DNA of 39,795 nucleotides from a virus. Both the position numbers and the translations under genes were made by a program. This document shows positions 2,624 to 39,795 of this stretch, piece after piece. How positions within the stretch are numbered: position 1 is the stretch's first letter; every line of letters begins with the position of its first letter. Under the pieces are notes generated by a model that was not told where the DNA came from, did not search any database, and was given only the letters and a program-made list of their open reading frames with translations. Location of the stretch: positions 1 through 39,795 of the IMG/VR virus record IMGVR_UViG_3300035698_009730; one strand, 5' to 3'.

Positions 2624-3259
2624 TTGACCGGTGGAAATCGCAAACTATGGAGTGATGAACACGAAATAACAGCCGTTGAACTCAACCCTGATATTGCAAA
2701 AGTTTATCAAAAGTTTTATCCTGATGATACTGTAATTGTTGGAGATGCTCACCAGTATTTACTTGAACGTCACAAGGAGTTTGATTTTATATGGGCGAGT
2801 CCTCCGTGTCAAAGTCATTCAGGTTGTAACCATTTTTTAAAAGGTCAAGGAATTTATAGGTATCCAGATATGAAATTATGGCAAGAGATATTATTTTTAA
2901 AACATTTCTGTGATAGTAAATATGTAGTTGAAAATGTAAAAAGTTATTATGATCCAATAATTGAACCTCAAACAATCGGAAGGCATTATTTTTGGTCTAA
3001 TTTTTTAATATTGCCAAAACAAATAAATTATTCCCAAATAGGTACAATGAATAGAAGTGCATCAAAAGAGAGCCAACGAAAAGCAATAATTAGAGAGGCG
3101 CAAATACCTGGGTTTTTAAACTTGCATGGCCTTAAAGATTTTAAACTTAAAAATAAAAGGCAGGTATTAAGAAATTGTGTCTACCCTCAGCTTGGCAAAC
3201 ATATCCTAGATTGTGCTATGGGAGCAGAGATAAAAACAGAAGAACTCGAACTATTTTAA
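2624..3259 (+). CDS. C5-cytosine DNA methyltransferase, frameshifted in motif I
   Basis: The long frame (residues from GGNRKLW on) carries the catalytic motif IV (SPPCQSHS, Cys nucleophile) and a motif VI-like VVENV, typical of small phage C5-cytosine methyltransferases that transfer a methyl group from SAM to cytosine C5. The true 5' end lies upstream in another frame: a GTG at 2586 with a GAGGAGG SD encodes the start of motif I (NLFAGI) and then hits TGA at 2625-2627. Removing five bases (TGACC) joins the two halves into the normal FAGIGG SAM-binding loop. The intact-frame ORF begins only at a TTG (2624). Probably a recent pseudogene. A programmed shift or sequence error is possible. Residues after about 150 appear normal. 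Confidence 0.7.
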   Translation: MTGGNRKLWSDEHEITAVELNPDIAKVYQKFYPDDTVIVGDAHQYLLERHKEFDFIWASPPCQSHSGCNHFLKGQGIYRYPDMKLWQEILFLKHFCDSKYVVENVKSYYDPIIEPQTIGRHYFWSNFLILPKQINYSQIGTMNRSASKESQRKAIIREAQIPGFLNLHGLKDFKLKNKRQVLRNCVYPQLGKHILDCAMGAEIKTEELELF

Positions 3260-4834: not shown

Positions 4835-4941
4835 TAATGAGAATCTCCGACAAGGGATTCCGCAAGTGGTTTTTCTTACGTTTTGTTCATTTTTTTCTCC
4901 AAGCCCCTACAGTTTGGCCACTGTAGGGGCTACCTTTTTTT
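4835..4941 (+). ncRNA. candidate small RNA of about 105 nt
   Basis: The stretch lies between a TTGACA-type promoter and a strong intrinsic terminator and has no ORF. It includes a small hairpin (GAATC/GATTC arms near 4851-4870) and a U-rich segment before the terminator stem. Expression and function are inference. Confidence 0.25.
4902..4941 (+). terminator. strong rho-independent terminator between convergent genes
   Basis: A perfect 11-bp stem (AGCCCCTACAG/CTGTAGGGGCT) with an 8-base loop is followed by ACC and seven Ts. The U-tract is on the plus-strand side only, so it stops plus-strand transcripts. The hairpin also sits directly behind the stop codon of the minus-strand operon and may protect that mRNA end. 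Confidence 0.85.
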
Positions 4942-5674
4942 ACGCTGTTGGTTTATACTTGCCGCGATCACATAAACCCCATTTTATAACTTCCCTTATC
5001 CCCTTTGCTCCCATGTGTCTATTTTTTCTAAACATATATCTATCTTTTCCAGTTTTACACATTACAGCAAGTTCTTTTTCAAGAGAGTCTACCTCGTTAA
5101 TCCTATCTGGATAATTAGCTAAGAGTCTAAAATCTGATCTGTTAGAATTAACACAGGGAAAGCACTCCATTGATCCATGTAATAAAATATCAATTCCTGA
5201 TCTTTCTTGTAATAAGTCTCTATCCATATCTGAGTATTCAACTAAAGGGTATTCCATCGCCCGGTTATATTTATCATCAAAAATAACTGAACGTGGATGA
5301 TTAGCCCTTTTTTGACTTTCACATCTCCTAATGCCAATATAAATAATTGCATCACAACATTTATCATTTTCGTCAAGCCATTTTTTAGTTGGCTCAGTTT
5401 TTAAAATTCCAGAACAAAAAGACATTTTGCTTGCAGCCATTGGGAAGCCTTTTTTATTTCGTACCATGTCTTTAAACCCTATGCTTTTCGTTTCAGCATA
5501 ATTAAATTTGTATCTGGCACAAAGGTTTTTAATTTCAGCCATTCTTTTATGCCACCATGTGATAGACCATCTAGTGTCATTAAATAATATGGTTACATTT
5601 TTAAGCTTATTTTCATAAGCCCATTGTATCAATGCAACTGAATCATTACCACCCGAACAACATATTATATTCAT
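4940..5674 (-). CDS. phosphoadenosine phosphosulfate reductase family (PP-loop) protein
   Basis: 244 residues. The N-terminus has the PP-loop SGGNDS (7-12) that grips the pyrophosphate of ATP or of an adenylyl sulfate. A YIGIRRCESQKR segment (about 112-123) and a C-terminal CFPC motif with a downstream NSNRSD follow, as in phage proteins annotated as PAPS-reductase family. These are related to DndC-type sulfur-transfer enzymes and ATP pyrophosphatases. The real substrate is not known. Sulfur chemistry on nucleic acid, cysteine metabolism or ATP-dependent modification are all possible. It is the last gene of the minus operon and ends inside the U-tract of the convergent terminator. Confidence 0.8.
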   Translation of the reverse strand: MNIICCSGGNDSVALIQWAYENKLKNVTILFNDTRWSITWWHKRMAEIKNLCARYKFNYAETKSIGFKDMVRNKKGFPMAASKMSFCSGILKTEPTKKWLDENDKCCDAIIYIGIRRCESQKRANHPRSVIFDDKYNRAMEYPLVEYSDMDRDLLQERSGIDILLHGSMECFPCVNSNRSDFRLLANYPDRINEVDSLEKELAVMCKTGKDRYMFRKNRHMGAKGIREVIKWGLCDRGKYKPTA

Positions 5675-6620: not shown

Positions 6621-7085
6621 TTAAGCCGTGACTGTCAATTTCGCTTGATAGTTAGCACAAAAATTTAAAAACTCTTCAATTTCTTTGTCTTTTTTTTGTG
6701 ATTCATCGTTATATTTTGAAATAACATCTTCTAATGCTTTAATTGCACCAGCAAAACATATTTGAGTAAATTCAGTTATATAAGGTTTTGGATTTTTAAA
6801 ATCAGGTGTGTAATATTCCATTCCATCGCGTGAATCAATAGAAACTATCGCAAGCTCACCGTCTTCAATTTCCCAGCATGCTTTTGTGTTAATCCAGGAA
6901 AAATAATTAAAATCATTCTGGAATAGGTTATTATCAAAATTCTGTCTGGCGTTGAAAGTTGGTGAAGTCAATACGTTGATGTCATCTTCTTTAATAGACT
7001 CATTAATTTTTTCTATTAAAGTCTCAAGTTCTTTTAATCCTTTTTGTGTTGTGTTTTTTCTTTCTTCAATTTTTAATTTTGTCAT
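6621..7085 (-). CDS. hypothetical protein, 154 aa
   Basis: SD AAAGGAGAG precedes the ATG. An N-terminal coiled helix (residues 5-35) leads into an aromatic and Asp-rich central part (FNYFSWINTKACWEIEDGE, about 60-80) and a C-terminal helical pair ending FCANYQAKLTV. No signal peptide and no catalytic motif recognised. Second gene from the operon promoter, separated from its neighbours by hairpins. Confidence 0.6.
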   Translation of the reverse strand: MTKLKIEERKNTTQKGLKELETLIEKINESIKEDDINVLTSPTFNARQNFDNNLFQNDFNYFSWINTKACWEIEDGELAIVSIDSRDGMEYYTPDFKNPKPYITEFTQICFAGAIKALEDVISKYNDESQKKDKEIEEFLNFCANYQAKLTVTA

Positions 7086-7140
7086 TTTCTCTCTCCTTTA
7101 TTAAAGTTTAACTACTATGTCTATCTTTAACCGCTTATTA

Positions 7141-7168
7141 TTGCTCTTGACTTGATTATCAAGAGCAA
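7141..7168 (-). other. perfect 10-bp intergenic hairpin
   Basis: TTGCTCTTGA and TCAAGAGCAA form a perfect stem with an 8-base loop just after the first gene of the minus operon. No U-tract follows on either strand, so partial termination, RNA processing or mRNA protection are more likely than full termination. Confidence 0.5.
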
Positions 7169-7177
7169 AGTAAAAGG

Positions 7178-7366
7178 TCAAGACCAGTCTGTAATAAAAA
7201 AGGGTTCGCTATCGCCCTTAATCTCTTTTATAATTGCTGATCCATCTTCATTCTCTTCTATTTCACAGGAATCAAATATATATTGAACTGTTGTGATAGG
7301 AGTCATTGGTCCCTCAAAATGTGCTGCTAAGATCCTGCTGTATTCTTTTATTGTTAGTTTTTCCAT
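7178..7366 (-). CDS. hypothetical acidic protein, 62 aa, first gene of minus operon
   Basis: AAAGGAGAG lies before the ATG, and a strong promoter (7409-7436) is about 45 bases upstream, so this is the promoter-proximal and probably best expressed gene of the operon. The 62 residues include an N-terminal helix, a central EENEDGS acidic turn and a hydrophobic end (FFITDWS). No family recognised. Small acidic early phage proteins are often host or defence inhibitors, but nothing in the sequence proves this here. Confidence 0.6.
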   Translation of the reverse strand: MEKLTIKEYSRILAAHFEGPMTPITTVQYIFDSCEIEENEDGSAIIKEIKGDSEPFFITDWS

Positions 7367-7408
7367 TTCTCTCTCCTTTGTTTAAGTTTTTGTTTTGCTC
7401 ATAGTTTG

Positions 7409-7436
7409 AATATACGCTTCTTTAGATTAATGTCAA
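7409..7436 (-). promoter_or_regulatory. strong sigma70 promoter of the minus-strand operon
   Basis: On the minus strand: TTGACA (7436-7431), a 16-base spacer, TATATT (7414-7409). The match is close to consensus in both boxes, and the first gene starts 43 bases downstream of the -10. Confidence 0.75.
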
Positions 7437-7465
7437 GTCTTTTTTCAAAGAAAAGTGAAATAAAA

Positions 7466-7479
7466 TTCAATGTATTGAA
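7466..7479. promoter_or_regulatory. candidate operator palindrome
   Basis: TTCAAT-GT-ATTGAA, two 6-base arms, lies midway between the divergent promoters at 7409-7436 and 7498-7526. A repressor bound here could control both directions. Confidence 0.4.
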
Positions 7480-7497
7480 ATAATAGGGTTTTTAATG

Positions 7498-7526
7498 TTG
7501 ACATAGAGATCAGTTTACTATATGTT
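7498..7526 (+). promoter_or_regulatory. sigma70 promoter of the rightward operon
   Basis: TTGACA (7498-7503), a 17-base spacer, TATGTT (7521-7526). The first rightward gene starts at 7563 behind a good SD. Divergent from the minus-operon promoter. Confidence 0.65.
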
Positions 7527-7562
7527 AGACATAGTTTAGTAGCTTAACGGAGGTTTTTTAGT

Positions 7563-7712
7563 ATGTTTAGACTTAGACAGAAAGACGCAGACCTTGTAGG
7601 CATGGTATTCACCACGCTTGTTGTGTTACTTGCTACATTTCTGTTTAAAATATATAAAAAACTAAAATCCGTCAAGAATCGCATTAGGAAGTGCTGTATA
7701 GGTACTATCTGA
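7563..7712 (+). CDS. small single-pass membrane protein, 49 aa
   Basis: The ATG follows ACGGAGG. Residues 11-29 form one hydrophobic helix (LVGMVFTTLVVLLATFLF), flanked by a charged N-terminus and a very basic C-terminal tail, so the N-terminus probably faces out and the tail in. The stop overlaps the next start (TGATG). It is too short for the usual track of genes but has an SD and promoter, so it is probably real. Confidence 0.55.
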   Translation: MFRLRQKDADLVGMVFTTLVVLLATFLFKIYKKLKSVKNRIRKCCIGTI

Positions 7713-7927
7713 TGGAGTGCCCTTATTGTAATAGTTGTACAGACATGAGGGTGTATGAAGCTCATCAAATAAAAAACTCAGCTTGGCAACAAGGAGCATC
7801 GAGCATTTATTATTGCCAGGATTGTGGGAGCCAGTTTAGAGCGCCGAGGGTAGAATATTATAATGACTTAATGCCAGTGGATACTTATTTTGATGCGCAT
7901 ACTAATAGAAAAGAGGTGTTGTATTGA
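7712..7927 (+). CDS. zinc-ribbon protein, 71 aa
   Basis: The start overlaps the preceding stop (TGATG). A first knuckle CPYC (residues 3-6, with a further Cys) and a second CQDCG about 30 residues later make a C2-C2 zinc ribbon like those in small transcription or nucleic-acid-binding proteins. The frame is open 21 bases upstream, but the overlap start puts the first knuckle at the N-terminus, as is usual. Role unknown, possibly host transcription interaction. Confidence 0.6.
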   Translation: MECPYCNSCTDMRVYEAHQIKNSAWQQGASSIYYCQDCGSQFRAPRVEYYNDLMPVDTYFDAHTNRKEVLY

Positions 7928-7937
7928 GATTAACTGC

Positions 7938-7981
7938 GCCCAATCCTCTGATATTGATTTATTTCAATATTACGTTTGGGC
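7938..7981 (+). terminator. possible weak terminator (two-part hairpin)
   Basis: An outer stem GCCCAA/TTGGGC and an inner stem ATATTG/CAATAT stack with an internal loop, followed by the U-rich CTTCTTGTT. It has the same architecture as the much stronger element at 15350-15404. The poor U-tract suggests partial termination. Confidence 0.4.
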
Positions 7982-8002
7982 CTTCTTGTTAAGATATAAA
8001 GA

Positions 8003-8170
8003 ATGTCAACTATAAGAACAGCAGAAGGCAAACGAATCAGACAAACAGACGGATCAAGGCGTTCAGTTAACCCTTTGAAATCAAGAAGAAACAGATTCAG
8101 AGCAAATCTAAATAAGGATAAGAATTACAGGGATAAATTTTCTGATATAAAGTGGAATATCCAAAAATGA
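8003..8170 (+). CDS. basic hypothetical protein, 55 aa
   Basis: A highly basic protein (many Arg and Lys, few acidic residues) without hydrophobic segments. The start ATG has only a weak SD (AAAG). The composition suggests nucleic-acid binding. The end overlaps the next ATG (ATGA). No family recognised. Confidence 0.5.
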   Translation: MSTIRTAEGKRIRQTDGSRRSVNPLKSRRNRFRANLNKDKNYRDKFSDIKWNIQK

Positions 8171-8349
8171 AAGATAGATTCAGCGAAGAGATTTGGCAGA
8201 ATAGTCCTAAAAAGGTGCAAGCCGTAACACCCGGAAAGTCTGAACATGGCTTAAAAGTGGTAAATAACGAGCCTAATTTCAGTGAGTGCCTTAAGTTTTA
8301 CGCAAAAAGGCGCAAAAAGTTGAAAAACAGTAATTTTAAGTGGTATTAG
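8167..8349 (+). CDS. basic hypothetical protein, 60 aa
   Basis: The ATG overlaps the previous stop (ATGA), giving coupled translation. A GTG 15 bases earlier is possible. A charged helix is followed by a Lys-rich tail (YAKRRKKLKNSNFKWY). The similarity in basic character to the preceding gene suggests they act together. Function unknown. Confidence 0.5.
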   Translation: MKDRFSEEIWQNSPKKVQAVTPGKSEHGLKVVNNEPNFSECLKFYAKRRKKLKNSNFKWY

Positions 8350-8385
8350 TAACCTGTTGAATTTGTTAGATATATATAATGGCAA

Positions 8386-8411
8386 GTCTCATATTCGCAT
8401 AGGCACGAGAC
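8386..8411 (+). repeat. 26-nt hairpin element, copy 1
   Basis: A 5-bp stem GTCTC/GAGAC encloses ATATTCGCATAGGCAC. It matches the element at 10835-10860 in 20 of 26 positions, and both sit 23 bases upstream of a start codon. A TATAAT (8375-8380) lies just before it, so it could form the 5' end of an mRNA. Confidence 0.5.
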
Positions 8412-8434
8412 AAAAATAAAAAGGTAGGATAAAT

Positions 8435-8617
8435 ATGGAAACAAAAGTTGCAGTCAAGCCGGCACAACCCTGGTGGAGCAGATGGTTTAATAAAAAGAAA
8501 AAAAAAGCTAAAACAAATAGCCCGGGGAATAAAAATTGGGGCTACATGCAAAATAAAAAAACAGTTACAAACAGGCTGGATGGTGCGTTTGCTTATCAAG
8601 ATAAAAAGAAAAAGTAA
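8435..8617 (+). CDS. basic hypothetical protein, 60 aa, upstream of the packaging genes
   Basis: SD GGTAGGA precedes the ATG, which lies just after the repeated hairpin element. The protein has a WWSRWF patch (about residues 14-19) followed by long Lys runs (NKKKKKAK) and a polar C-terminus. This is typical of small, disordered phage head or packaging accessory proteins, but no family was recognised. An overlapping ORF (8448-8636) in another frame is judged a shadow. Confidence 0.5.
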   Translation: METKVAVKPAQPWWSRWFNKKKKKAKTNSPGNKNWGYMQNKKTVTNRLDGAFAYQDKKKK

Positions 8618-8635
8618 TGGAAGGGTATTTTTCTA

Positions 8636-8824
8636 ATGGTCGGAGTAATAACAACAAGCAAGATACCACCAGAAATTTTAGGATGGACAAACTTGCGGTT
8701 ACTTTATGAAGATCATAACATTGAGTATAAACCATTATTTAATATAGAAGTACCAGGGGAAGAAGTCTTTAGCGTTCCAGAACAGAAGAGAATTATTCAG
8801 GATGGTGTGAGGGAAATATTTTAA
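8636..8824 (+). CDS. hypothetical protein, 62 aa
   Basis: The ATG has a moderately placed GGAAGGG SD. The 62-residue acidic protein contains a PPEILGWTNLRLLYEDH core and a Pro/Glu-rich C-terminal half. It lies 11 bases before the small terminase gene and is probably part of the packaging operon. No motif recognised. Confidence 0.55.
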   Translation: MVGVITTSKIPPEILGWTNLRLLYEDHNIEYKPLFNIEVPGEEVFSVPEQKRIIQDGVREIF

Positions 8825-13823: not shown

Positions 13824-14168
13824 ATGAGTTATACAGCGCATAAAGGAGCACAACTAATGAAAAACGAATCAGGGATTAACCCCAGGGGCCATTATATTTT
13901 AATCCTTCCAAAAGAAGTTGAAAAGAAAACATCAGGAGGACTTATACTTATAGACGAAACAATCGAAAATGCAGAGCGTGACACTACGCAAGGAACGCTT
14001 GTCGCAATTGGTCCTATAGGGTGGAAAGAGTTTGGGAATGGTGAGCCATGGGCTGGGGTTGGTGATACTGTTACATACGGAAAATATGCAGGTCGTGATA
14101 TGACCGGAAAAGATGGGAAGAAATATATCCTGGCAAATTGTGAGGATATACTGGCGGTGTTACGGTGA
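13824..14168 (+). CDS. phage GroES-like co-chaperonin
   Basis: 114 residues (103 from the second start). The core INPRGHYILILPKEVEKK, the mobile-loop-like TSGGLIL (36-42), QGTLVAIGPIG and the C-terminal KYILANCEDILAVL match the Cpn10/GroES fold that caps GroEL. Phage members adapt host GroEL to fold large capsid proteins, as T4 gp31 does. There are two starts, each with a full SD: ATG 13824 (AAAGGAGAG) and ATG 13857 (AAAGGAG). The second gives the usual family length, the first adds 11 residues. It is placed among head genes before scaffold and capsid. Overlaps the next GTG start. Confidence 0.85.
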   Translation: MSYTAHKGAQLMKNESGINPRGHYILILPKEVEKKTSGGLILIDETIENAERDTTQGTLVAIGPIGWKEFGNGEPWAGVGDTVTYGKYAGRDMTGKDGKKYILANCEDILAVLR

Positions 14169-23553: not shown

Positions 23554-24288
23554 ATGACATTAAGATTAAGTACGGGATTGAGAAATGGAGTCCTTGACAC
23601 AAAGGCAGAGGCGGAGAATCTTCAAACAAGCACAACAGCTTTTTCATTTACAGCAGCAGGTGGCTCGACTACAAGTGGTAGTACGTTAGTTGCGTCAGGT
23701 TCTACTTTATCGGCTTTTTGTGTTAGTGATAATCTTACAATAGCTGGCTCAGCCAATAGTGGTACTAACAATTCGTTTGAAATGCTTTCTGTTACGTCCG
23801 GGATAGTTGAGGTAGCAAGTGGATCATTCACTACAGAAGCAGCAAGCCCACAGATTATTATTGCAACCGCCAGGGGTGGATCTTATGTGGATCTTTTTAG
23901 AAATTGTGTAATTGATATCTATTCAGGCTCACAGCCTGCCACTGCTAATGCAGATGAAACAGGCACAAAACTTGTTCATATCACATTAGCCTCTGGAACA
24001 TTTGTAGCAGGTGCAGCAGCAAACGGTTTAAATTTTGGTGCAGTTTCGTCCGGTGTTCTTGCAAAAGAAACAGGAGAAGTATGGTCTGGTGTAGGGCTTG
24101 CAGATGGTACAGCAGGGTGGTTTAGAATTTATGCAAATGCTTACACTACAGGAACAAGCACAACGGCTGTCAGAATAGATGGATCAGTTGCAACAAGCGG
24201 AAGTCAGTTTAATATGTCAAGCACAACGGTTGTAACAGATGCAACAACTACAGTGGATACAGTTGCATTAACTCAACCAGCAGCATAG
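23554..24288 (+). CDS. fibre-like virion protein, 244 aa
   Basis: SD TGGAGTAA precedes the ATG. The N-terminus MTLRLSTGLRNGVL is followed by a Ser/Thr/Gly/Ala-rich beta domain (SFTAAGGSTTSGS…), a RGGSYVDLFRNCVIDIYSG part, and a C-terminal domain (LNFGAVSSGVLAKETGEV… TQPAA, about residues 159-244). Only this C-terminal domain is duplicated in the chimeric gene at 25461-25772. The composition is typical for phage fibres and other exposed virion proteins. Confidence 0.6.
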   Translation: MTLRLSTGLRNGVLDTKAEAENLQTSTTAFSFTAAGGSTTSGSTLVASGSTLSAFCVSDNLTIAGSANSGTNNSFEMLSVTSGIVEVASGSFTTEAASPQIIIATARGGSYVDLFRNCVIDIYSGSQPATANADETGTKLVHITLASGTFVAGAAANGLNFGAVSSGVLAKETGEVWSGVGLADGTAGWFRIYANAYTTGTSTTAVRIDGSVATSGSQFNMSSTTVVTDATTTVDTVALTQPAA

Positions 24289-25510
24289 GAATAGACAATG
24301 TCTTATTCTAATGTAAAAAGTATTATCCTTGATATTGCCGATAGCTATGTTGCTTCACCGACTACAATGGCAATAAGGTCAGTTGACTTTTATTTGTCTG
24401 AAGCTTTAATACCAATCATATCCGATGATATAACTTGTTATTCCACAACTGGTTCAAATGCTGAGGATGCGTTTATAACTGCCCTCTCTAAAACAGGCGG
24501 ATCTTTTGGGAATGAATACTATTCTACTACCGATGAATTAGGGAGAGTTATCTGTGTTTTCGATTCAGCAATAGAATTTGATACGATTATTTTTAACAAT
24601 AGCCACGAATCTGGTGGCTCTACGACCAGGGGAATCAAAAACACAAAGATATATTCATCCACAGACGCAATAACAAGCACAGTCTATAATGAGGCTATTG
24701 CAAATAGCACATTATTATATGATGATACTATTGCAGAACATAGTGGGGCTGATGAAGTTGACAATCAAACACTGGTAACTGATGTCCCAGTTGAAGGCTT
24801 AGACATGACATTGCCAGCGTTAACATTAGAAATAGCGGCAACTGTTGAACAAGAAACAACGGCTGACATAGAGGCGTCTATACCTAGCATGACTATTGTA
24901 ATTAGTGGTCTTTCTGCGTTCCCAGGTCACATGGTGGCCACTATTCCACTCTTATCATTAACCGCCTCTACGTCAGCATCGGATACATTCGATGATTTCG
25001 ATATGGAGATACCGAGCCTTGAACTTGAGGCTTATAATTCTCCAAGCATTAATGCTGAATTGCCAAGCTTAACGATGGAGATGGTGGGTAGAGTAGGGAG
25101 GATTGCAGATATAAAAGCAACTCTTCCAAGTTTAACTATGTCTGCGAAAACTGGTTCAAATATAACCCTTGAGGTTCCGTTTTTATCTTTATCCTCAGAG
25201 GTTTCTACGGCAGAGGTAGAGATAGAATTAACAGCAGATATTGAGGGATTAATACCTGCCTTACGAATGAGAGTGATAAGCAAGCCTCCTGATAATATTT
25301 CTATTTCATTACCAATGCTAACCATGGCAATGGCAGCACAACAATCAGGCGTGAATGATTTCGCTCTTATGCTGCCAGCTTTAATGGCGAGTATTAATTC
25401 AACCGGGGATTCGGGTGATATTACAGATGATGCTTTGAGATATATAAGGGGGTTGATTCGATGATTGTTCTTGACACAAATTTAAAAGCCAAGAGTGCGA
25501 CTACCCAGTA
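24027..25510 (+). repeat. tandem duplication, unit A (1,484 bp)
   Basis: It begins inside the 23554 gene (TTTAAATTTTGGTG) and ends after the codons of DTNLKAKSATTQY. It matches unit B (25511-27027) over its whole length with about three quarters or more identity by eye, and with a 66-base identical patch (24958-25023). Confidence 0.75.
24298..25464 (+). CDS. discoidin-like plus LPxL-repeat fibre protein, copy A, 388 aa
   Basis: The N-terminal domain (about residues 1-160) starts SYSNVKSIILDIADSY, has the AEDAFITALSKTGGS and GRVICVFDSAIEFDTIIFNNSH parts, and looks like a discoidin or F5/8-type beta sandwich. Residues 165-370 hold about nine repeats of 20-30 residues, each with a core like LPSLTM or IPSLEL followed by alternating hydrophobic residues. 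This would make a long beta-structured stalk. The C-terminus DALRYIRGLIR is shared with copy B. Probably a tail fibre or receptor-binding part. It overlaps the next gene (ATGA). Confidence 0.6.
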   Translation: MSYSNVKSIILDIADSYVASPTTMAIRSVDFYLSEALIPIISDDITCYSTTGSNAEDAFITALSKTGGSFGNEYYSTTDELGRVICVFDSAIEFDTIIFNNSHESGGSTTRGIKNTKIYSSTDAITSTVYNEAIANSTLLYDDTIAEHSGADEVDNQTLVTDVPVEGLDMTLPALTLEIAATVEQETTADIEASIPSMTIVISGLSAFPGHMVATIPLLSLTASTSASDTFDDFDMEIPSLELEAYNSPSINAELPSLTMEMVGRVGRIADIKATLPSLTMSAKTGSNITLEVPFLSLSSEVSTAEVEIELTADIEGLIPALRMRVISKPPDNISISLPMLTMAMAAQQSGVNDFALMLPALMASINSTGDSGDITDDALRYIRGLIR

Positions 25511-25772
25511 TTTAAATTTTGGTGCGGTGTCTTCTGGTGTCCTTGCAAAAGAGACAGGCGAGGTATGGTCCGGTGTTGGATTAGCCGACGGGACTGCAGG
25601 GTGGTTTAGGATATATGACAATTCATATACAACACGCGCTAGTTCTTCAGCCGTTAGACTTGATGGATCAGTTGCTACCTCTGGCTCTCAATTTAATATG
25701 TCAAGCACTACTGTCGTTACAGCAGCAACAACTACAGTGGATTCCGTGGCGCTAACTCAACCAGCAGCATAG
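25461..25772 (+). CDS. chimeric gene created by the tandem duplication, 103 aa
   Basis: Residues 1-17 (MIVLDTNLKAKSATTQY) match the start of the gene at 26978, and residues 18-103 (LNFGAVSSGVLAKETGEV… TQPAA) match the C-terminal domain of the gene at 23554. The join falls exactly at the duplication boundary (25510/25511). The frame stayed open through the join and all residues look maintained, so the chimera may be expressed from the coupled ATGA start. Confidence 0.65.
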   Translation: MIVLDTNLKAKSATTQYLNFGAVSSGVLAKETGEVWSGVGLADGTAGWFRIYDNSYTTRASSSAVRLDGSVATSGSQFNMSSTTVVTAATTTVDSVALTQPAA

Positions 25773-27027
25773 GGGGAATAAATGTCTTTTGCTTCTGCTA
25801 AAAGTGTAATCCTCGATTTTGCTGATAATTGGGGTAGCTTTGATGACATGAAAATCAGATCAGTCGATTTTTATATGTCTTCCTCAAAAATATCTGTAGC
25901 TACAGCCGATATCACTTGTTATTCGACAACTAGCGAATCAGCTTCCTACGCGGCCGATAATGTATTTGACACTTCATTATCGAAAACAGGGGCGAGTGGT
26001 GATGCTGAATGGGGTAGTGACGGTTATGGCGACACCCCGACTGTAAATAAAAGAATAATTTGTGTTTTTGATACAGCGATTGAGTTTGATGAAATGCGCG
26101 TAAATAACTCTCATGGGCAAACAGGTTTTGTATATCCGACTCATGGAGTTAAAAATACTGAAATTTATTTTTCCACAGATACGATCACAAGCACTGTCTA
26201 TGGTGAAGCAATCTCGAATAGCACTTTAATTTATGATGATGAAATAGATGAGCATTCGAATGTAAACGAAGAAGACGAACAAATATTAACCTTGGTCACG
26301 GGTGATGAGACTACGATAATTATGACATTGCCCTCATTAACAGCGTCAATAGCTGCAACAATTGTAAACGACACAACGGCTGATATTGAGGCTTCGATTC
26401 CATCTTTAGAAATGACAAATACTGGACATCCATCTTTTCCTGGTCATATAGTCGCTACTATTCCACCTTTATTTTTAACCGCCTCTACGTCAGCATCGGA
26501 TACATTCGATGATTTCGATATGGAGATACCGAGCCTTGAATTTGAGGCTTACAATTCTCCAAGTATTGACATTGAATTACCGAGCTTATCAATGGAGATG
26601 GAAGGCAAGACAGGAAAACTTGCAGATATTAAAGCGACTCTTCCAAGTTTAACCATGTTAGCCAAGGGTGGCTCTAATGTAACCCTTGAGGTTCCGTTTT
26701 TATCCATGACAGCAGATGTGTCAATAGTTGAAGCAGAGGTAGAATTAACAGCAGATGTTGAAGGGTCTATTCCAGTTCTACGCATGAGAGTCATAAGCAA
26801 ACCACCTGATAATATTGCGACTTCTCTTCCATTCTTAACAATGGCTATGGTCGCACAACAAAGTGGTGATAATGATTTTTCTCTTATGATACCAGCTTTA
26901 ATGGCAAGTATTAACTCAGCAGGTGATTCTGGAGATATCGAAGATGATGCTCTCAGATATATAAGGGGACTAGTCCGATGATTGTGTTTGATACGAATTT
27001 AAAAGCCAAAAGTGCCACAACTCAGTA
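25511..27027 (+). repeat. tandem duplication, unit B (1,517 bp)
   Basis: The second unit. It is 33 bases longer than unit A, the difference being 11 extra codons in the repeat-protein gene. Its 3' boundary (CTCAGTATTCTAATTTTGA) and the junction between units (CCCAGTATTTAAATTTTGG) share short homology, which could have mediated the exchange. Confidence 0.75.
25782..26981 (+). CDS. discoidin-like plus LPxL-repeat fibre protein, copy B, 399 aa
   Basis: Paralogue of the gene at 24298, with the same order: an N-terminal beta-sandwich domain (SFASAKSVILDFADNW…, FDTALSKTG-type segment longer by a GDAEWGSDGYGD insert) and about nine LPSL-type repeats, ending DALRYIRGLVR. The N-terminal domains differ most, while the repeat cores and one 66-base patch are the same, so they could bind different surface targets on the same stalk. 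It overlaps the next gene by four bases. Confidence 0.6.
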   Translation: MSFASAKSVILDFADNWGSFDDMKIRSVDFYMSSSKISVATADITCYSTTSESASYAADNVFDTSLSKTGASGDAEWGSDGYGDTPTVNKRIICVFDTAIEFDEMRVNNSHGQTGFVYPTHGVKNTEIYFSTDTITSTVYGEAISNSTLIYDDEIDEHSNVNEEDEQILTLVTGDETTIIMTLPSLTASIAATIVNDTTADIEASIPSLEMTNTGHPSFPGHIVATIPPLFLTASTSASDTFDDFDMEIPSLEFEAYNSPSIDIELPSLSMEMEGKTGKLADIKATLPSLTMLAKGGSNVTLEVPFLSMTADVSIVEAEVELTADVEGSIPVLRMRVISKPPDNIATSLPFLTMAMVAQQSGDNDFSLMIPALMASINSAGDSGDIEDDALRYIRGLVR

Positions 27028-31221: not shown

Positions 31222-34200
31222 ATGTCAGACGCAGAACAAGCCTTCCAAGAGTATTTAAAAAGTGAAGAAAACAATAATCTACAAAAGACATCAAATTGGT
31301 ATGCTCCTACCCAAACTAAAAATCTTTCTAGCAATGTTGACCAAGGACAAGACGCGGAGAGAGCTTTCCAAGAGTATTTAAAAAAAGATAGTGACACACA
31401 GCAGATGTATGGATGGTCTAGTCAGACACAACCTCAAGCTGGCATGGTAGGTGCTGGAGCTAAGCTAGATCCTATTCAAAATAGGGGCATGAGAGGATAC
31501 CAAAAAGAACGAGGGATATCCGGTGATGTAGGTGCAAGCGTAGGAAGAGGCGTGGCAGACCTTGCAAGCTTAACAGGGCATGCATTAAAAACAGTAGATC
31601 CAGATGGTGGAATAAATGTAGTGGATTCAGCAGGACAATGGTTAATAGATAAGGCTGACAAGGCACAAAAATCAGATATATTAAGACCAGACGAATCAGA
31701 AGCCAATGGAGAAGGATTCGTCAAAAGAGGTATTATGGGTGGAATCCAAAGTATGGTTCCCTCTGTAGCGCCAGTATTGGCTGGAGCAGGAACGGGTGGT
31801 CTTGTTGGATCTGTTGTCCCTGGAGTCGGGACAGCGGTTGGAGCATTTGTAGGCGGTACGGCTGCAACACTAGGTCTTTTCGGGATAGGAACATACGGAC
31901 AAAAGAAAGAAGAATATCTTAAGTCTGGAATTGATGAAAAAACGGCTCACTCGTCAGCATTAAAACAGGCAGTTGTGGAGGGTGGTATAGAAGAACTTTC
32001 TAACCTTCTTGGTTTCTTTACATTTGGAGGTAGTAAATTAGTAACTCAACCATTAAAGGCGACAGCTAAAGAGCTTTTAAAAACACCGATAAAAACATTT
32101 GCAAAAAATTTAACAAAAAATGCTCTCCTGAATGAAGTGCCAACAGAAATGATACAGGGCGCTTTAGGGGCAAAAATAGATCAGAATTTAGGCTTACTTC
32201 CAGATGGCGCGTGGCAAGAAGCAGCCGTAGAATCAATTATCCCGGCTGTAACGATGAGTGTGTTTTTTGGACTTGGAGCCCAAGGGTTAACCTCTACACG
32301 CAGGAGTATGCTTAAAAAGCAGCTCAACAGTGAAGACAATGGTAAGAGAGTAGATGCTGTAACCGAAATAGCAAAGGAAATTAAAGATAAAGAATTAAAG
32401 CAAGCATGGTTTAATATGACCATGCCACTTATTAAAAATAGTGAACCGATTGATGTGAATCTTGACTTCTCACAAGTAGGCAAATCTACAACTCCACCAA
32501 CAGATACAGAAATAATTGGTACTTTAAAATCATCTCTTGATTCTGGTGAAATGACTCCAGAACAAATAATAGAATTAAAAAAATATCCTGCAAACGAAAG
32601 ATTCATTCCCGCCCTGGATAAACTTGTTGCTGACTATGACGATATAACATATAAAAACGATACTCCAGACGGAAAATTGTTCAATGCTGCTAGAAATTCA
32701 AGGCTTATGGAGCGTTCTGCGAGAGGTGAAGACATTACCCTTGATACTTCTACTCCTACTCCGGAAGAATTGCAATGGGAAGCTGATATCAAAGCACAGA
32801 GGGCAGGAATACCAAAACAAAAAGCCAAGCTTGAACAACAGGCTAATGAATTAAAAGCACAGTTAGCAGATAAGAAGGCTTCTGATGAATTAAAAGCAGA
32901 TATCCAAAATAATTTAATTGATAACCAGAAAAAGATTGATGATTTATCACGATTTGAAAGACAGCAAGAACAGATAGACATGACTGATATGAGTGAATTA
33001 GAACGAGTTGAAAGTCAGAGAAGGTCAGTTGAGGCACTTGAGAAGAGACAGGCTGAGATATTAGATTCTGAAATGTTTACTGAGAGTTCACAAGATACGT
33101 TAGATCCTAATCAAGTTAATTTTAGAGAAGATAGTGTGGCAAGAAGGCAAAGACAAATAGATAGGGAGAAGGAATCTACTTGGGAAGCTGATATCAAGTC
33201 CCAGAATAATAAAAAAATTGACCCTACTGAATTGGCAAGGGTCAGAAATCAACAAAAAATAAAAAACATTGAACTAAACGAAGCCGTACCAGAAACTAAA
33301 AAATACCCGATAGAACCAAACCTTTATAATAAAATTGATTTGATGCAAGAAGAGGTCAATAATTCTGAGGTAGGTGGTTTTAATCAGGATTCAGGGATTA
33401 GGTTCAAAGCTACTTCTCCGATGTGGATGCGTAATGTTCAGAAATCTTTAAGTGCTGCCGGGCTAAAGGCAATGAACAGAGTGGCTTTTAATGCTATATT
33501 TAATAAGCTAAAAAATCGCAAAACACTTACACCTATCCAAGCAGAACAATACAGCCACATAAAACCAGAGCTTGAAAGCTATGTTGGTGAAAGCGGAGAA
33601 CTCCAAGACTTTGCAGAGGAAGAAGCTTACGCAGTAGAAGAAGCAAACATAATCCAAGACATAGATAATAATAAGTTTGTTCCAGCAGAATTATTAAGAA
33701 AGCATCCAGACCTGATTTCTCCTGATAATATTATGGAAGATTCTAAAGGCATGGATACTATCCTCAAGAATGATGTAAAAAAACAAGATTGGGAAAAACC
33801 ATCTATAGTAGAGGAAACCACACCTCTCAGAAAAAATATAAATAAATTATGGAAAAAATATTTTATAGGCATGTTTAATAGCTTGAAGAAAATGAGAGGG
33901 GAGGCCAATGCTAAGGCAACAATCGGTCTTGCTACCAATTCAGATGTTATTATACGGAAATTAACACAATTAGAGTCAGCGATAGAAAATAATGATATTA
34001 ATGGAATAAACAAGGCCTTGGGTGGGTTAGGCCAATACTTACCAACCGACCCAAATAATAAAGACGCTGGGATAGAAAGAGATAAAGTATTAACAGATGC
34101 TCAAAAAGAAGCCTTTAAGAATCTTTCAGATGAAATAATATTAGATTATTTAAAAATAGAACAACAAAAAAAGAATGATAATTATGGCGATTCAAGATAT

Positions 34201-37200
34201 GAAGTTTCAAAAGCAATTGATGAGGACACTCTTTTTGTTGGTGGTAATGCAAACTATATTTTATCTGAGGCATTTTCCAGGGGACTGGTTGATAAAAACG
34301 GAGATTCTAAAGGGGAGGATTCCCCCCTTAAGAATGAGATAGGATATTCTAAAGGCGACATAGGGAACTTTAAAGGCAACAAAGGTATTTATACTGGAGT
34401 TGTTAAAAAAGAACCAGGCGGTAATCTTTATGAAATAGAAATGCAAGAAGGTTCTGAAAAGGGAACTAAAAGGTTTATTCAAAAAGCTCGTAAAGATATG
34501 ACAGATCAAGAAAGGCAAGCATGGGCAGATCATCTACGCAAAACGAACAATAATATTAGAAAAACTTTAAGCAAAGAGGCTGTTCCTTCTTTATATAAAA
34601 AATCTACATACAAAGGTAAAGAATCTATTTCGGGAGTTATTATCCATAAAAGCACAAAATTTCCTGGTAAATGGCAAGCTTCAGCATGGGATGAAAGAGG
34701 TTTTATAGGTGATACAACTCATAACACTAAAAAAGAAGCCATTAACGATGCCATAGCAGGCGGTAATGATTTAATAGGCAGAACTGAATTTGATAAGATT
34801 TCTAAAACAGATGAGTTCTTACAAGGCATAAAAGATACTGAGGAAACTCAGAGATGGAATAAAGAACAATATGAAAAGAGTAAGTTAAAAGACCAAACTC
34901 CAATTACCCCCACAGAGGGTAATAAGAAATCTAAAGAGGATTTAAATCCTGTTAAGGATACAACCCAACCAACAACCAAGCAAGCCAAAGAACCACAGTC
35001 AAAAATAGAAGAACCACAATCTTCTTTCAAAAAAGATATTGCAAAAGATAATAAAAGGGATTATGTTGAATCAAAGGAGAACAAAAGTGAAACAAAACAA
35101 CTTGATCTTTTTGAATACAAGCCAGAAAAAGCTGAAAAGGATAGCATCCAGGAAAGCTTACGAACTAAACAAGAGGTATCAACCGCTCCAATCTCCGGAG
35201 TGGACGTTTCCAATAGTGAATATGTCGTACAAACAGACGAAGACGCCGCAGCCTTAATATCCCACCTCGTAGGAACACCGGAAGAACGAGCCTATTTTCT
35301 AATCTTAGATAAAGACGGGAAAGTCCTTGAAGTATTACAACATTCAGCAGGTGGTAAGGGTTCAAGCTCCATAGACCCCTCAGTAGCAATAGGTAGAGTT
35401 TTCAATAAAAAAAATGCTACCAAAGTTATATTTGCTCATAATCATCCATCGGGTACTGTAGAGCCATCAAGGCCAAAATACGAAGGCGACCAGGCCAATG
35501 ACGTAACTGCTATTGGTAAAATTAAAGACACCGCAGCCTTGAGAGATATCAAAGTAACTGCCATGATAGTAGGAGCAGATTCTTTTTCGGTCTTTGATGA
35601 AAATGGAATAATATCAGAGGCTAAAATAGGCAAGACTATCAAAAAAGCCGACATTCAGATTAAAGAAAGAGCCTTTACTAAAAAACGTACAGATCGACTA
35701 GAAAAGTTTGGTCCAGCCAATATAGGGGAAAGACTTTATAAAGAACAAGACGGTTTTTTACTTTTGGATGGAAGGAACAGAGAGGTCGGATTTCTACCAT
35801 TCCCATCAGGATTATCTCAAAAAGAAATTTCAGCCCGATTAATTGCAGCCACGGAAAAAACAAATGCTCAGAGTATGGTAATAAACAGTAAGCCTAAAAA
35901 GAACCTAGCTGATAGGATTTCGTTCCTTGAAAAATTACCAGATGGCTTAAAAGATATAGGAGTTGGTGTGGTTGATATTATTCGTTATGATATGAACGGC
36001 AACCCCACACATTCAGCTCCAAGTTCTGGGACTGGATATACTGTTAAAGATTTGAAATCAGATAAGGTGCTGTATCAAACCACAGAAGACTTAATTTCCG
36101 TTAAAGGCATGCAAGCAAAATGGGAAAAAGAAGGTATCAACCTATCTTTATTTGAAGATAAAAAAGAAATAAGAATAAATAATATTATAGTTCCAAAAGG
36201 CAAACAAAAAACAGGTATAGGCTCTAAGATAATTCAAGAAGTCGTAGAATATGCTGACAATGTAGGGAAGAGAATTGTTCTGACACCGGGGCTAAAAGAT
36301 GATTCACACGGCACTACCTCTCGAAGTAGACTTGTTAAGTTCTACAAGCGATTTGGTTTTGTTGAAAGTAAAGGAAGAAATTTAGATTATGAGATAGGCG
36401 CAGGGAAAATGTATCGAGATTCTAAGCCTAAGTTTTCGACAAAAGAAGATTCAGGAAACATAACGACCAAAAAAGATAAGAACTTTAAAAAATGGTCTAA
36501 AGGCTATCTAGTTTTAGAAGATTATGAGATAGCAGATGCAAAAGCTGATGCTGGTGTAGTTGTAAAAGTATCTCATGGCACAACAGATGAATTTGATATT
36601 TTTGATCCAACCAAGAAAGGTAATAAAGAAGGTCAGTTCGGTGCGGTAAATTATTTTACTTCTGACAAGGGCGATGCTGACATTAATTACGCTGGTGAAG
36701 GTCCTGATTTAACAAATCGCATAGAGCAGAGAGCAGAACAGATTGCCTATGAGATTGGCGATTCATACAATGAAGAAGAAATAAAAGAGTTATCAGATGA
36801 ATATGATTTAGAGTTTGATCCAGAAACAGAATCATACCCAGAAGATTTACCGACAGAGATGGCAAGGAAAGAATTATCAGGTGGGAAACCTAATAGATTA
36901 GATTTATATGTGCGCCTTGATAAGCCCGCATATATTGGTGGCAATACAACTACATGGGTTGATAATTTTGATTCGGAAGCGATAAGTGAAGATGCCACAG
37001 AACAAATATTAGAAGAGAATGATGCTACTAAGGTAGACATAGAAGAATATGAAGATGAGATACAAGATAGAATATATGAGATAGAGATGGATACTGAGTC
37101 TGAAATTTTAAATGCTATCCAACAAGCTTTATATGAAGTAAACTCAGACGTATACGCTATAGATGTATACCAAAGTCTTGAATTGGATGATGGCGAAATA

Positions 37201-39795
37201 ACTGCTACCGAATTAGAAGAAAGGCTTCGCTCATCTGAGGCGTTGTTATATGCGGAAGATAAAGAGAATGGCGAACTTATAAATAGCCATATCATAGGAC
37301 TTGTGTTTAAAAATCTAGGATATGATGGCATAGTTCTTCAAAATGCGAATGAAAGATTTGAAAATATGGATATGGGATACGCGACTTCTCATGTTCATGT
37401 ATTTGAAGATACTCCTTCACAAATTAAAAGCAGAAAAGATAATATAAATTATAGTGAGAATGAAGATAGTATTTATTTATCTACATTGGAAGACGTAGAA
37501 AACGATTTCAACAAACCAACCACAGAAAAACCCCTAACCGGAAAGGAGAAAATAAATGCCCTGCTTCAAGCTAAAAAACGGAATAAGGATACACTTAAAC
37601 GACAAAGCTTTCACAGACAAAGACTCATTAAAGCATTTAAAGGAAAAGGGGATACCTCAACTATTAAAATCCTTCCCTCAAAAACAAGACAGCAAAGAGC
37701 GTTTAACAAAATAGGCAATCTTTTTGGTGTAAATGTAATCCTATTTAAATCAACAGATCCGAATATAAATAATTTCAATGGGTTTACCTACCCAGATTCA
37801 AACGATATTTTTGTAAATGCTGCAAACGATAATAATATAATGGCTATAATCGGGCATGAAACTATGCACCAGTTTGAAGTCCAGCACCCAGAAGAATACA
37901 AAGAATTAGTAAAAGCCCTTAAATCAAACGTAAAGAACTATAAGACATACTCAGACAAGCTTAAAAGGGTAAGGGGCGTATTGGGCGCAGAAGAGCTAAC
38001 AGACACAGAAGTATTTGACGAGTTCGTGGCTGATTTTTCAGGCGATCAATTCCAGAATGGTGAGTTCTTAGAGAAACTTAGCCAAGAAAATCCTAACCTA
38101 TTCAACAAACTTGTTAAGATTTTAGCCGATATAGTCAGAAAATTAAAGAGTATTACCAATCGGGCAGAGAAGCATATCATAGATGTTGAAAAGGCACAGG
38201 CTGACTTGTTAAGTGCTTTTGGTAAGGCATTGAGAGTTTCGCGTTTTGAAAACGCAAAAGGTAAGGGTAAATTACAATCTATAGAATTGGCAAACCCATT
38301 TTATTCTCAACTACTAAAATCGGTTGAAGCTATAAAACAAAAAGTTATGCCAGCCAAAGCTTGGAAACAGGTAATAGCAAGTAAGAATTTTAACGCAAAA
38401 CAGGAAGAAATTGAGTGGTCGGGGGTTAATGAGTGGTTGGATTCCAGGAAAGGGAAGGTTACCAAGGCAGAGGTTGTTACTTATCTGAATGAAAATCAGG
38501 TTGTGCTTGAGGAGGTTGTGAAGGGTGGAGAATTAACCCATAATAGATTAGGTTGGATGAAGCGTGGAAATATCTATAAACCATCTTCGGAGTTTAATTT
38601 AGGGCATATCGAATATTTGCCATCTAACGGTAAGTATATCTATAATTCTCTTGGTGGTGTCCGTAATGGTTTTGACACACTTGAGGATGCAAAAGATGAT
38701 GCTTTAATGGTTGCGGAGAATATCGGATTGGATGAAACCAAATTCTCCCAATACCAACTCACCGGAGGTGAGAATTACAAAGAATTGTTCTTGACACTTC
38801 CAAACACTGAAGATTATTCATGGAAAGACGGACATGACTCATACAGCGATGTAAAAAATCCTTTAGTTAGAGTCAGGACAAACGAGAGAATCGTAGACGG
38901 GAAGAAAGTTCTTGTAATTGAAGAGGTACAGGGTCCATTAAAGGAAGAAGAAAAGAATATGCCAGCATGGGCGCAACAAGGGAAAAATCAGTATCTTATT
39001 GCCCTAAAGAAAATGGTGCGTTATGCAGCAGAAAATGGATTTGATGTGCTGAGCTGGACTGAAGGACAGGTTCAGGTTGATAGGTACTCTTTAGAAAAAC
39101 AGATCGATTCTATATCATATAGGAAAAATAAAAATGGTACTTATCAGGTAGCTGCGTATGATTTAACAAGTCAGAAAAAAGTAATCCTTGCTGAGTCTGA
39201 AGCTACTGCCAAAAGGGTCGAGGCTTTATTCGGAAAAGATATTTTGGAGAAAATTGAAGGTGGAAAAGGCGTGGTCGATGGTGACACTACATTTCTAAGA
39301 GAGCAGGACCTCAAAGTCGGAGGCGAGAAACTAAAAGCGTTATACGACCGCATGCTCCCTGATATTGCAAACAAATTCTTCAACAAAAAAGCATGGGGTA
39401 AGGCAAGGGTTGGGGAGATTGAGATAGAAGGAACATCTAAAGCCTACGTTGATTTAGTTTACTATGAAGATACGCAAAAAGATGAATGGTCAGTTTTGGA
39501 GCCTTCCGGAGAGATGGAAACCAAAGATATCAAAAGGGGGCTCGCTTCCGAGAGGGATGCAGATGCTTATTTGAATGAGTACCTTGCTGACAAAGGCATC
39601 GCAGTTAAACTCCACGCCCTACCAATAACACCCACCATGAAATCCAAAGCCCTTAAAGAAGGCATGCCACTTTTCAAGACAGATGACAAAGCCTGGATGG
39701 AAGAAGGCAAAGGGTATTTTAACACAGCCCCTGTCGGCGATGTAGACCTAAATATAAACAGGGATTTTGAAGAGGCAGGATTGAATCTCCCCAAA
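31222..39795 (+). CDS. giant polyvalent protein (RadC/JAB, GNAT, ADP-ribosyltransferase, metallopeptidase domains), 3' partial
   Basis: SD AAGGAG and a TAA just before the ATG fix the start. No stop occurs to the window end (2,858 codons). Domains in order: two DAExAFQEYL peptides (3-12, 44-53); glycine-rich hydrophobic segments (174-226, 334-350); coiled coils (about 514-690); QLDLF (1293-1297); RadC/JAB domain (about 1334-1465) with HNHPSG (1406-1411); GNAT-like domain (about 1630-1735) with KGKQKTGIGSK; ADP-ribosyltransferase-like domain (about 1780-2065) with SHGT and FGAVNYFTSD; zincin metallopeptidase with HETMH (2212-2216) and DEFVAD; then polyvalent-associated domains from about 2393. 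Such proteins are thought to enter the cell with phage DNA and act on host proteins. Each activity is inferred from motifs. The real C-terminus lies outside the window. Confidence 0.85.
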   Translation, partial: MSDAEQAFQEYLKSEENNNLQKTSNWYAPTQTKNLSSNVDQGQDAERAFQEYLKKDSDTQQMYGWSSQTQPQAGMVGAGAKLDPIQNRGMRGYQKERGISGDVGASVGRGVADLASLTGHALKTVDPDGGINVVDSAGQWLIDKADKAQKSDILRPDESEANGEGFVKRGIMGGIQSMVPSVAPVLAGAGTGGLVGSVVPGVGTAVGAFVGGTAATLGLFGIGTYGQKKEEYLKSGIDEKTAHSSALKQAVVEGGIEELSNLLGFFTFGGSKLVTQPLKATAKELLKTPIKTFAKNLTKNALLNEVPTEMIQGALGAKIDQNLGLLPDGAWQEAAVESIIPAVTMSVFFGLGAQGLTSTRRSMLKKQLNSEDNGKRVDAVTEIAKEIKDKELKQAWFNMTMPLIKNSEPIDVNLDFSQVGKSTTPPTDTEIIGTLKSSLDSGEMTPEQIIELKKYPANERFIPALDKLVADYDDITYKNDTPDGKLFNAARNSRLMERSARGEDITLDTSTPTPEELQWEADIKAQRAGIPKQKAKLEQQANELKAQLADKKASDELKADIQNNLIDNQKKIDDLSRFERQQEQIDMTDMSELERVESQRRSVEALEKRQAEILDSEMFTESSQDTLDPNQVNFREDSVARRQRQIDREKESTWEADIKSQNNKKIDPTELARVRNQQKIKNIELNEAVPETKKYPIEPNLYNKIDLMQEEVNNSEVGGFNQDSGIRFKATSPMWMRNVQKSLSAAGLKAMNRVAFNAIFNKLKNRKTLTPIQAEQYSHIKPELESYVGESGELQDFAEEEAYAVEEANIIQDIDNNKFVPAELLRKHPDLISPDNIMEDSKGMDTILKNDVKKQDWEKPSIVEETTPLRKNINKLWKKYFIGMFNSLKKMRGEANAKATIGLATNSDVIIRKLTQLESAIENNDINGINKALGGLGQYLPTDPNNKDAGIERDKVLTDAQKEAFKNLSDEIILDYLKIEQQKKNDNYGDSRYEVSKAIDEDTLFVGGNANYILSEAFSRGLVDKNGDSKGEDSPLKNEIGYSKGDIGNFKGNKGIYTGVVKKEPGGNLYEIEMQEGSEKGTKRFIQKARKDMTDQERQAWADHLRKTNNNIRKTLSKEAVPSLYKKSTYKGKESISGVIIHKSTKFPGKWQASAWDERGFIGDTTHNTKKEAINDAIAGGNDLIGRTEFDKISKTDEFLQGIKDTEETQRWNKEQYEKSKLKDQTPITPTEGNKKSKEDLNPVKDTTQPTTKQAKEPQSKIEEPQSSFKKDIAKDNKRDYVESKENKSETKQLDLFEYKPEKAEKDSIQESLRTKQEVSTAPISGVDVSNSEYVVQTDEDAAALISHLVGTPEERAYFLILDKDGKVLEVLQHSAGGKGSSSIDPSVAIGRVFNKKNATKVIFAHNHPSGTVEPSRPKYEGDQANDVTAIGKIKDTAALRDIKVTAMIVGADSFSVFDENGIISEAKIGKTIKKADIQIKERAFTKKRTDRLEKFGPANIGERLYKEQDGFLLLDGRNREVGFLPFPSGLSQKEISARLIAATEKTNAQSMVINSKPKKNLADRISFLEKLPDGLKDIGVGVVDIIRYDMNGNPTHSAPSSGTGYTVKDLKSDKVLYQTTEDLISVKGMQAKWEKEGINLSLFEDKKEIRINNIIVPKGKQKTGIGSKIIQEVVEYADNVGKRIVLTPGLKDDSHGTTSRSRLVKFYKRFGFVESKGRNLDYEIGAGKMYRDSKPKFSTKEDSGNITTKKDKNFKKWSKGYLVLEDYEIADAKADAGVVVKVSHGTTDEFDIFDPTKKGNKEGQFGAVNYFTSDKGDADINYAGEGPDLTNRIEQRAEQIAYEIGDSYNEEEIKELSDEYDLEFDPETESYPEDLPTEMARKELSGGKPNRLDLYVRLDKPAYIGGNTTTWVDNFDSEAISEDATEQILEENDATKVDIEEYEDEIQDRIYEIEMDTESEILNAIQQALYEVNSDVYAIDVYQSLELDDGEITATELEERLRSSEALLYAEDKENGELINSHIIGLVFKNLGYDGIVLQNANERFENMDMGYATSHVHVFEDTPSQIKSRKDNINYSENEDSIYLSTLEDVENDFNKPTTEKPLTGKEKINALLQAKKRNKDTLKRQSFHRQRLIKAFKGKGDTSTIKILPSKTRQQRAFNKIGNLFGVNVILFKSTDPNINNFNGFTYPDSNDIFVNAANDNNIMAIIGHETMHQFEVQHPEEYKELVKALKSNVKNYKTYSDKLKRVRGVLGAEELTDTEVFDEFVADFSGDQFQNGEFLEKLSQENPNLFNKLVKILADIVRKLKSITNRAEKHIIDVEKAQADLLSAFGKALRVSRFENAKGKGKLQSIELANPFYSQLLKSVEAIKQKVMPAKAWKQVIASKNFNAKQEEIEWSGVNEWLDSRKGKVTKAEVVTYLNENQVVLEEVVKGGELTHNRLGWMKRGNIYKPSSEFNLGHIEYLPSNGKYIYNSLGGVRNGFDTLEDAKDDALMVAENIGLDETKFSQYQLTGGENYKELFLTLPNTEDYSWKDGHDSYSDVKNPLVRVRTNERIVDGKKVLVIEEVQGPLKEEEKNMPAWAQQGKNQYLIALKKMVRYAAENGFDVLSWTEGQVQVDRYSLEKQIDSISYRKNKNGTYQVAAYDLTSQKKVILAESEATAKRVEALFGKDILEKIEGGKGVVDGDTTFLREQDLKVGGEKLKALYDRMLPDIANKFFNKKAWGKARVGEIEIEGTSKAYVDLVYYEDTQKDEWSVLEPSGEMETKDIKRGLASERDADAYLNEYLADKGIAVKLHALPITPTMKSKALKEGMPLFKTDDKAWMEEGKGYFNTAPVGDVDLNINRDFEEAGLNLPK

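Follow-up and report, generated by a model that had tools for sequence, protein, structure and literature searches.

The window, by which we mean the whole stretch of DNA that was analyzed, is an entire virus record of 39,795 bases. Its last part is taken up by one open frame that begins with an ATG at 31222, preceded by a ribosome binding site judged good (AAGGAGCAATAAATG), and stays open to the last base at 39795. This bears out the original prediction of a single frame of at least 2,858 codons; given the composition of the window, 2,858 open codons would arise by chance with a probability of about 6e-87. Since the frame reaches the contig end, the true C terminus of the giant protein is missing. 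A circular contig was considered and no end-to-end repeat was seen. The giant gene occupies a late position, after the virion genes of a podovirus-like phage, and its relatives are placed likewise. Among terminases, that of the window comes closest to the enzymes of Vibrio and Pseudoalteromonas phages of podovirus-like type (44%). Viral status in IMG/VR is a prediction, and the alignments used in this analysis are shallow. The locus contains the following features.

8836–31180, plus strand: virion gene block upstream of the giant gene (small and large terminase, portal, major head protein, head closure and further virion proteins)
31222–39795, plus strand: gene of the giant polyvalent protein (2,858 residues), truncated at its 3′ end by the contig border
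31501–33639, plus strand: N-terminal part, residues 94–806, with 27% identity to the corresponding part of the giant from contig L116
31729–31941, plus strand: glycine-rich hydrophobic segment, residues 170–240, resembling a tape-measure profile
35098–35112, plus strand: QLDLF, residues 1293–1297, about 40 residues ahead of RadC, identical to the consensus motif for binding the bacterial sliding clamp
35227–35607, plus strand: RadC-type JAB domain, residues 1336–1462, with E1355, H1406, H1408, S1416 and D1427 at the conserved metal-site positions
35470–35493, plus strand: 8-residue insertion, residues 1417–1424, between the S and D of the RadC site, found in the window protein only among the aligned giants
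35644–35991, plus strand: probable second RadC-fold domain lacking the HxH site, residues 1475–1590, from model and profile comparison
36073–36441, plus strand: GNAT acetyltransferase domain, residues ~1618–1740, from a Pfam match below cut-off (E 2e-4) and relatives
36478–37491, plus strand: ART-PolyVal ADP-ribosyltransferase domain, residues 1753–2090, with H1785, Y1811 and a long acidic insertion
37669–38211, plus strand: zincin-like metallopeptidase domain, residues 2150–2330, with HETMH (2212–2216) and E2267
38284–39681, plus strand: C-terminal module of ~470 residues (2355–2820), recurrent in phage giants, predicted fold weakly GNAT-like

Elsewhere in the window there are a C5-methylase-like gene (2624–3259), a PAPS reductase-family gene on the minus strand (4940–5674, PF01507 E 1.3e-10) and, between the portal and head genes, a gene for a Cpn10/GroES-like co-chaperonin (13824–14168, PF00166 E 1.2e-13). 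Two virion genes are duplicated in tandem at 23554–26981; the repeats, D1 and D2, are 76–81% identical, and L116 has single genes that match both copies. Within the giant protein, the N-terminal part is presumed to be the virion/ejection part, and residues 170–240 form a possible membrane-inserting segment. A short motif, DAExAFQEYLK, occurs twice near the N terminus (31228–31260 and 31351–31383), and L116 has a comparable pair.

The domain content places the protein in a known class. Polyvalent proteins have been known since 2017, which means that the architecture as a whole is not novel, and the prepacked entry kit that the original prediction suggested is the role proposed for them (PMC5512222). 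In this class GNAT and ART domains are usual neighbors, zincin peptidases probably process the chains, and the genes lie near late genes (PMC5512222). The giant gene is near late/virion genes and its product combines several disparate catalytic domains in one chain; judged by sequence, it is a phage-type polyvalent protein. The presence of several enzyme-like domains in the chain was confirmed, with RadC, GNAT and ART-PolyVal supported directly or through relatives and the zincin domain through its HExxH motif and downstream glutamate.

The identity of the GNAT and ART domains follows from relatives that carry the recognized domains. The GNAT domain is 34–48% identical to those of giants from Ruegeria phage 45A6, Parlo, ZX1, Skulduggery, two Vibrio phages and the viral contig L017, and that of 45A6 exceeds the Pfam cut-off. 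The acetyl-CoA loop, Q/R-x-x-G-x-G/A, is present as QKTGIG (residues 1662–1667). Against PF18760 the ART domain scores 17.6 bits (cut-off 31.2, E 0.007), and relatives in L109, L115, L116 and L181 score above the ART-PolyVal cut-off. For the H-Y-D site, H1785 and Y1811 align, and the third residue is E2062 or D2063, an uncertain assignment. The SHGT region singled out in the original prediction holds for the copy at 1784–1787, which lies inside the ART domain; SHGT occurs a second time at 1695, inside the GNAT domain, to which that copy belongs.

The peptidase gave zero matches in a Pfam search of the window protein. The HETMH region predicted to mark it nevertheless stands without a profile match, as an HExxH motif with a downstream glutamate, both conserved in relatives (L181 and L182). 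The polyvalent-associated domains expected after the peptidase were found in part: no Pfam LPD model matched in the window protein, but a phage module present in many giants does occupy this position. This C-terminal module corresponds to no Pfam family. The structural model of the peptidase and C-terminal module is fair (pLDDT 68, pTM 0.48), and the best solved matches in a fold search with the module were GNAT-superfamily folds with E 0.017 or worse. Because these matches are weak, no function is claimed. Viral fold matches of the module include 'Gene product 88' proteins.

The RadC domain matches PF04002 over residues 1339–1462 with E 6.5e-13 and 49 bits, well above the curated cut-off of 22.1, and the E, HxH, S and D residues of the metal site all align. 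The predicted order, with a RadC/JAB domain ahead of GNAT and ART, is real and unusual. Owing to the 8-residue insertion in the site, the activity of the window RadC is less certain than that of its relatives, and the domain may be impaired. An AlphaFold2 model of the RadC pair (pLDDT 78, pTM 0.79) gives both domains the same order of elements, helix-strand-strand-helix-strand-helix-strand-strand. Among solved structures, RadC 2qlc fits the first domain best (E 5.7e-6, TM 0.79 by target). The second domain matches the RadC profile weakly (E 0.0018, HH probability 15%); one of 50 shuffles came near this value, and other domains gave E ≥0.12. By Pfam alone a RadC match appeared in one of 10 segments, with E 0.08. 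As Pfam is too weak here, the assignment of a RadC fold rests on the order of secondary structure elements and the weak profile match, which make a degenerate RadC fold probable. An alignment of 23 giants shows no variation in the E, HxH and D and almost none in the S. A second domain without HxH follows RadC in most giants, and both domains occur together in at least 15.

The distribution of this cassette was examined in viral contigs. In the published comparison of element types, RadC occurs in polyvalent proteins of conjugative elements only, whereas the section on RadC in the same paper also names prophages (PMC5512222). Scanning viral contigs with the window sequence as sole query, whether at full length or one domain at a time, gave no matches. 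An initial RadC scan of viral contigs returned mostly solo genes, together with L017, which encodes a 4,186-residue protein with GNAT, ART and RadC. When the RadC regions of three such proteins served as queries, the scan yielded about 19 nonredundant viral giants besides the window protein. The limitation of RadC to polyvalent proteins of conjugative elements therefore does not hold, and the open-access literature yielded no subsequent description of RadC in polyvalent proteins of phages. Among 15 giants analyzed with Pfam, all 15 have RadC, eight LPD38, four ART-PolyVal, three InPase and three ddrB-ParB; PBECR and MuF_C also occur. LPD38, ddrB-ParB and InPase are reported from phage-type polyvalent proteins only (PMC5512222). 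RadC giants were also found in bacterial genomes (Endozoicomonas, Opitutae). One conjugative plasmid, of Pseudomonas sp. KHPS1, encodes the RadC tandem and a zincin domain in a 1,810-residue frame at its tra locus (L337:9731–15160); the annotated plasmid gene begins about 1 kb downstream of the start of this frame and omits the RadC part. Among 50,697 records of named phages, zero matches spanned most of the RadC tandem.

The nearest backbone relative, L116, has six neighboring virion genes in common with the window. Its giant protein matches the N-terminal part, GNAT-ART and the C-terminal module in the same order but lacks RadC, which indicates that the cassette is gained and lost on a common backbone. 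Among other giants the position of the cassette varies. About 0.7 kb of unrelated sequence in L116 (12586–13298) splits the C-terminal module of its giant between two frames; no known RNA was found in it with Rfam, and it is possibly an inserted element.

The QLDLF upstream of RadC fits Q-phi-x-[LM]-[FL] and is the sole such pentamer in the window protein. This consensus was found in 2001, and among pentamers for the bacterial sliding clamp it is reported to be the strongest (PMC11139829). It was first spotted by eye in the alignment, and its enrichment was tested afterwards. Within 110 residues upstream of RadC, Q..[LM]F is present in 14 of the 23 giants against 0.27 expected, with at most three in 2,000 shuffles; with the published definition the count is eight of 23 against about 0.5 expected. 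That definition requires an aliphatic second residue, which is missing in some of the enriched forms (QGDLF, QRDLF). Seven instances of the strict motif lie in RadC giants, against zero in 60 giants that lack RadC. Linkers ahead of GNAT domains, 50 in all, gave no instance of the motif, and solo RadC proteins show no enrichment (3/184). An extra cassette scan of viral contigs gave only known loci, and bacterial genomes were therefore used for a hold-out of eight later sequences, seven from such genomes and one from a plasmid. Two of the eight have the loose pentamer (P ~0.001) and two, different proteins, fit the published definition (P ~0.003), where one motif-positive member, L364, appears close to Endozoicomonas proteins of the initial set. 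Pairwise identity between the RadC regions of the giants is mostly <45%, so that recent shared descent does not explain the recurrence of the motif, though it somewhat inflates the counts. As the pentamer is unrecognizable in nine of the 23 giants and in half of the hold-out, the motif is not obligatory.

Comparison with known systems shows what is shared and what is added. Like phage polyvalent proteins in general, the window protein has unrelated enzymatic domains in one chain, a late gene, GNAT beside ART and a zincin peptidase; it differs by RadC, the probable second RadC-like domain and the clamp motif (PMC5512222). In the DarB-like/PLxRFG giants of Serratia phage Parlo, Klebsiella phage ZX1, Pseudomonas phage Skulduggery, Ruegeria phage 45A6 and Vibrio phage 1.232.O, the GNAT domain is 34–45% identical to that of the window. 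The giant gene of Parlo, ZX1 and Skulduggery is located late in the virion block, ahead of the lysis genes. Those scanned (45A6, Parlo and 1.232.O) possess a helicase, a methylase and LPD38 or LPD39 and, unlike the window protein, no RadC; conversely, no DarB-like helicase-methylase was detected in the window protein. The 4,186-residue protein of L181/L017 (IMG/VR 3300014312_000014) is alike in GNAT, ART, RadC, second RadC-like domain, C-terminal module and an upstream QLALF, but its order is GNAT-ART-RadC and the peptidase is in a separate gene. In L017, clustered cysteines without a Pfam match lie between RadC and the C-terminal module (6800–8700). With the RadC family (2qlc, PF04002) the window RadC shares the fold and the conserved E, HxHPSG, S and D; it deviates in forming part of a giant chain, in the degenerate partner that comes after it and in the site insertion. 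The virion RNA polymerase of phage N4, a giant that is packaged and ejected with the DNA, serves as a model for the class (PMC5512222; PMC12633501); an RNA polymerase domain was not found in the window protein.

In view of the above, a function in early infection can be considered. The N-terminal half would probably serve packaging and ejection, and the C-terminal half would supply effectors active as the DNA enters. GNAT and ART could modify host proteins, while the zincin domain could free pieces of the chain or cut a target. The RadC cassette, comprising QLDLF, a RadC with a complete site and the degenerate partner, would dock on the host sliding clamp DnaN and act there on DNA or nucleotides at replication sites. 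Possible purposes are protection of the incoming DNA, disturbance of the host fork or countering of a DNA-targeting defense. The analysis demonstrates the frame, the domains, the conserved metal-site residues, the recurrent cassette and the enrichment of the motif; for the giant protein we infer packaging in the virion, binding to the clamp, enzymatic activity and the substrates. We assign a probability of roughly 55% to this account as a whole, that is, an injected polyvalent protein with GNAT, ART and zincin effectors and a clamp-docked RadC cassette acting on DNA or nucleotides. The more pointed proposal, that phages inject a RadC/pseudo-RadC enzyme which QLDLF tethers to the host replication clamp and which acts at the fork on DNA or nucleotides from the onset of infection, is tentative.

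The cassette could also be read in other ways. RadC and its degenerate partner might be noncatalytic protein or DNA scaffolds, with the QLDLF-like motifs reflecting linker composition or a processing site. The enzymatic activity of RadC is not established and its repair role is disputed (PMC5512222), and the motifs do sit in variable linkers. However, the metal-site residues are conserved, composition-preserving shuffles fail to yield the motif and the control linkers before GNAT lack it, and we regard a scaffold as unlikely. Alternatively, the motif by itself would recruit or block the host clamp, in competition with host ligands, and RadC would be a passive or structural neighbor. QLDLF peptides are strong clamp ligands (PMC11139829) and the insertion in the window RadC site would agree with such a role. 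Yet all the giants retain the E, HxH and D, and nearly all the S, with cassettes that are 20–27% identical to that of the window, a constancy that argues for catalysis, and the motif accompanies RadC rather than other domains; clamp recruitment without catalysis thus appears distinctly improbable.

The original prediction had proposed that the JAB domain counters ubiquitin-like conjugates of bacterial defense. RadC does form one clade of the JAB superfamily and the window domain has the site residues, but by sequence and fold this domain is of RadC type: its closest fold is RadC 2qlc (E 5.7e-6), whereas the JAMM deubiquitinases reach E ~0.1 (PfJAMM1 0.11, BRCC36 0.08). RadC has moreover been argued to lack the groove for a ubiquitin tail (PMC5512222), and the clamp motif points to DNA instead. 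The proposal was not borne out, and removal of such conjugates is very improbable. An assembly artefact or gene decay as the source of the domain combination is hardly credible: the evidence comes from a single metagenomic contig that is cut at its end, but the frame has 2,858 open codons, the neighboring genes are common to L116, and L181 and L197, two contigs, hold the same domains, bar the peptidase, in a different order.

What is new in the favored account is the presence of RadC in phage polyvalent proteins, its cassette with a probable second domain and the upstream clamp motif; this corrects the claimed restriction of RadC to polyvalent proteins of conjugative elements. The role of RadC being disputed, a cassette with a clamp motif far above chance suggests a concrete place of action. 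Both the recurrent second domain and the C-terminal module are without a Pfam family. If true, the proposal of a tethered enzyme would describe a virion-delivered, clamp-guided effector and would give the RadC domains of mobile elements a biochemical setting. Outside the giants, two solo viral RadC genes have a clamp-like motif near the N terminus, QLTLF (L238:1–477) and QLTMF (L226:9827–10318).
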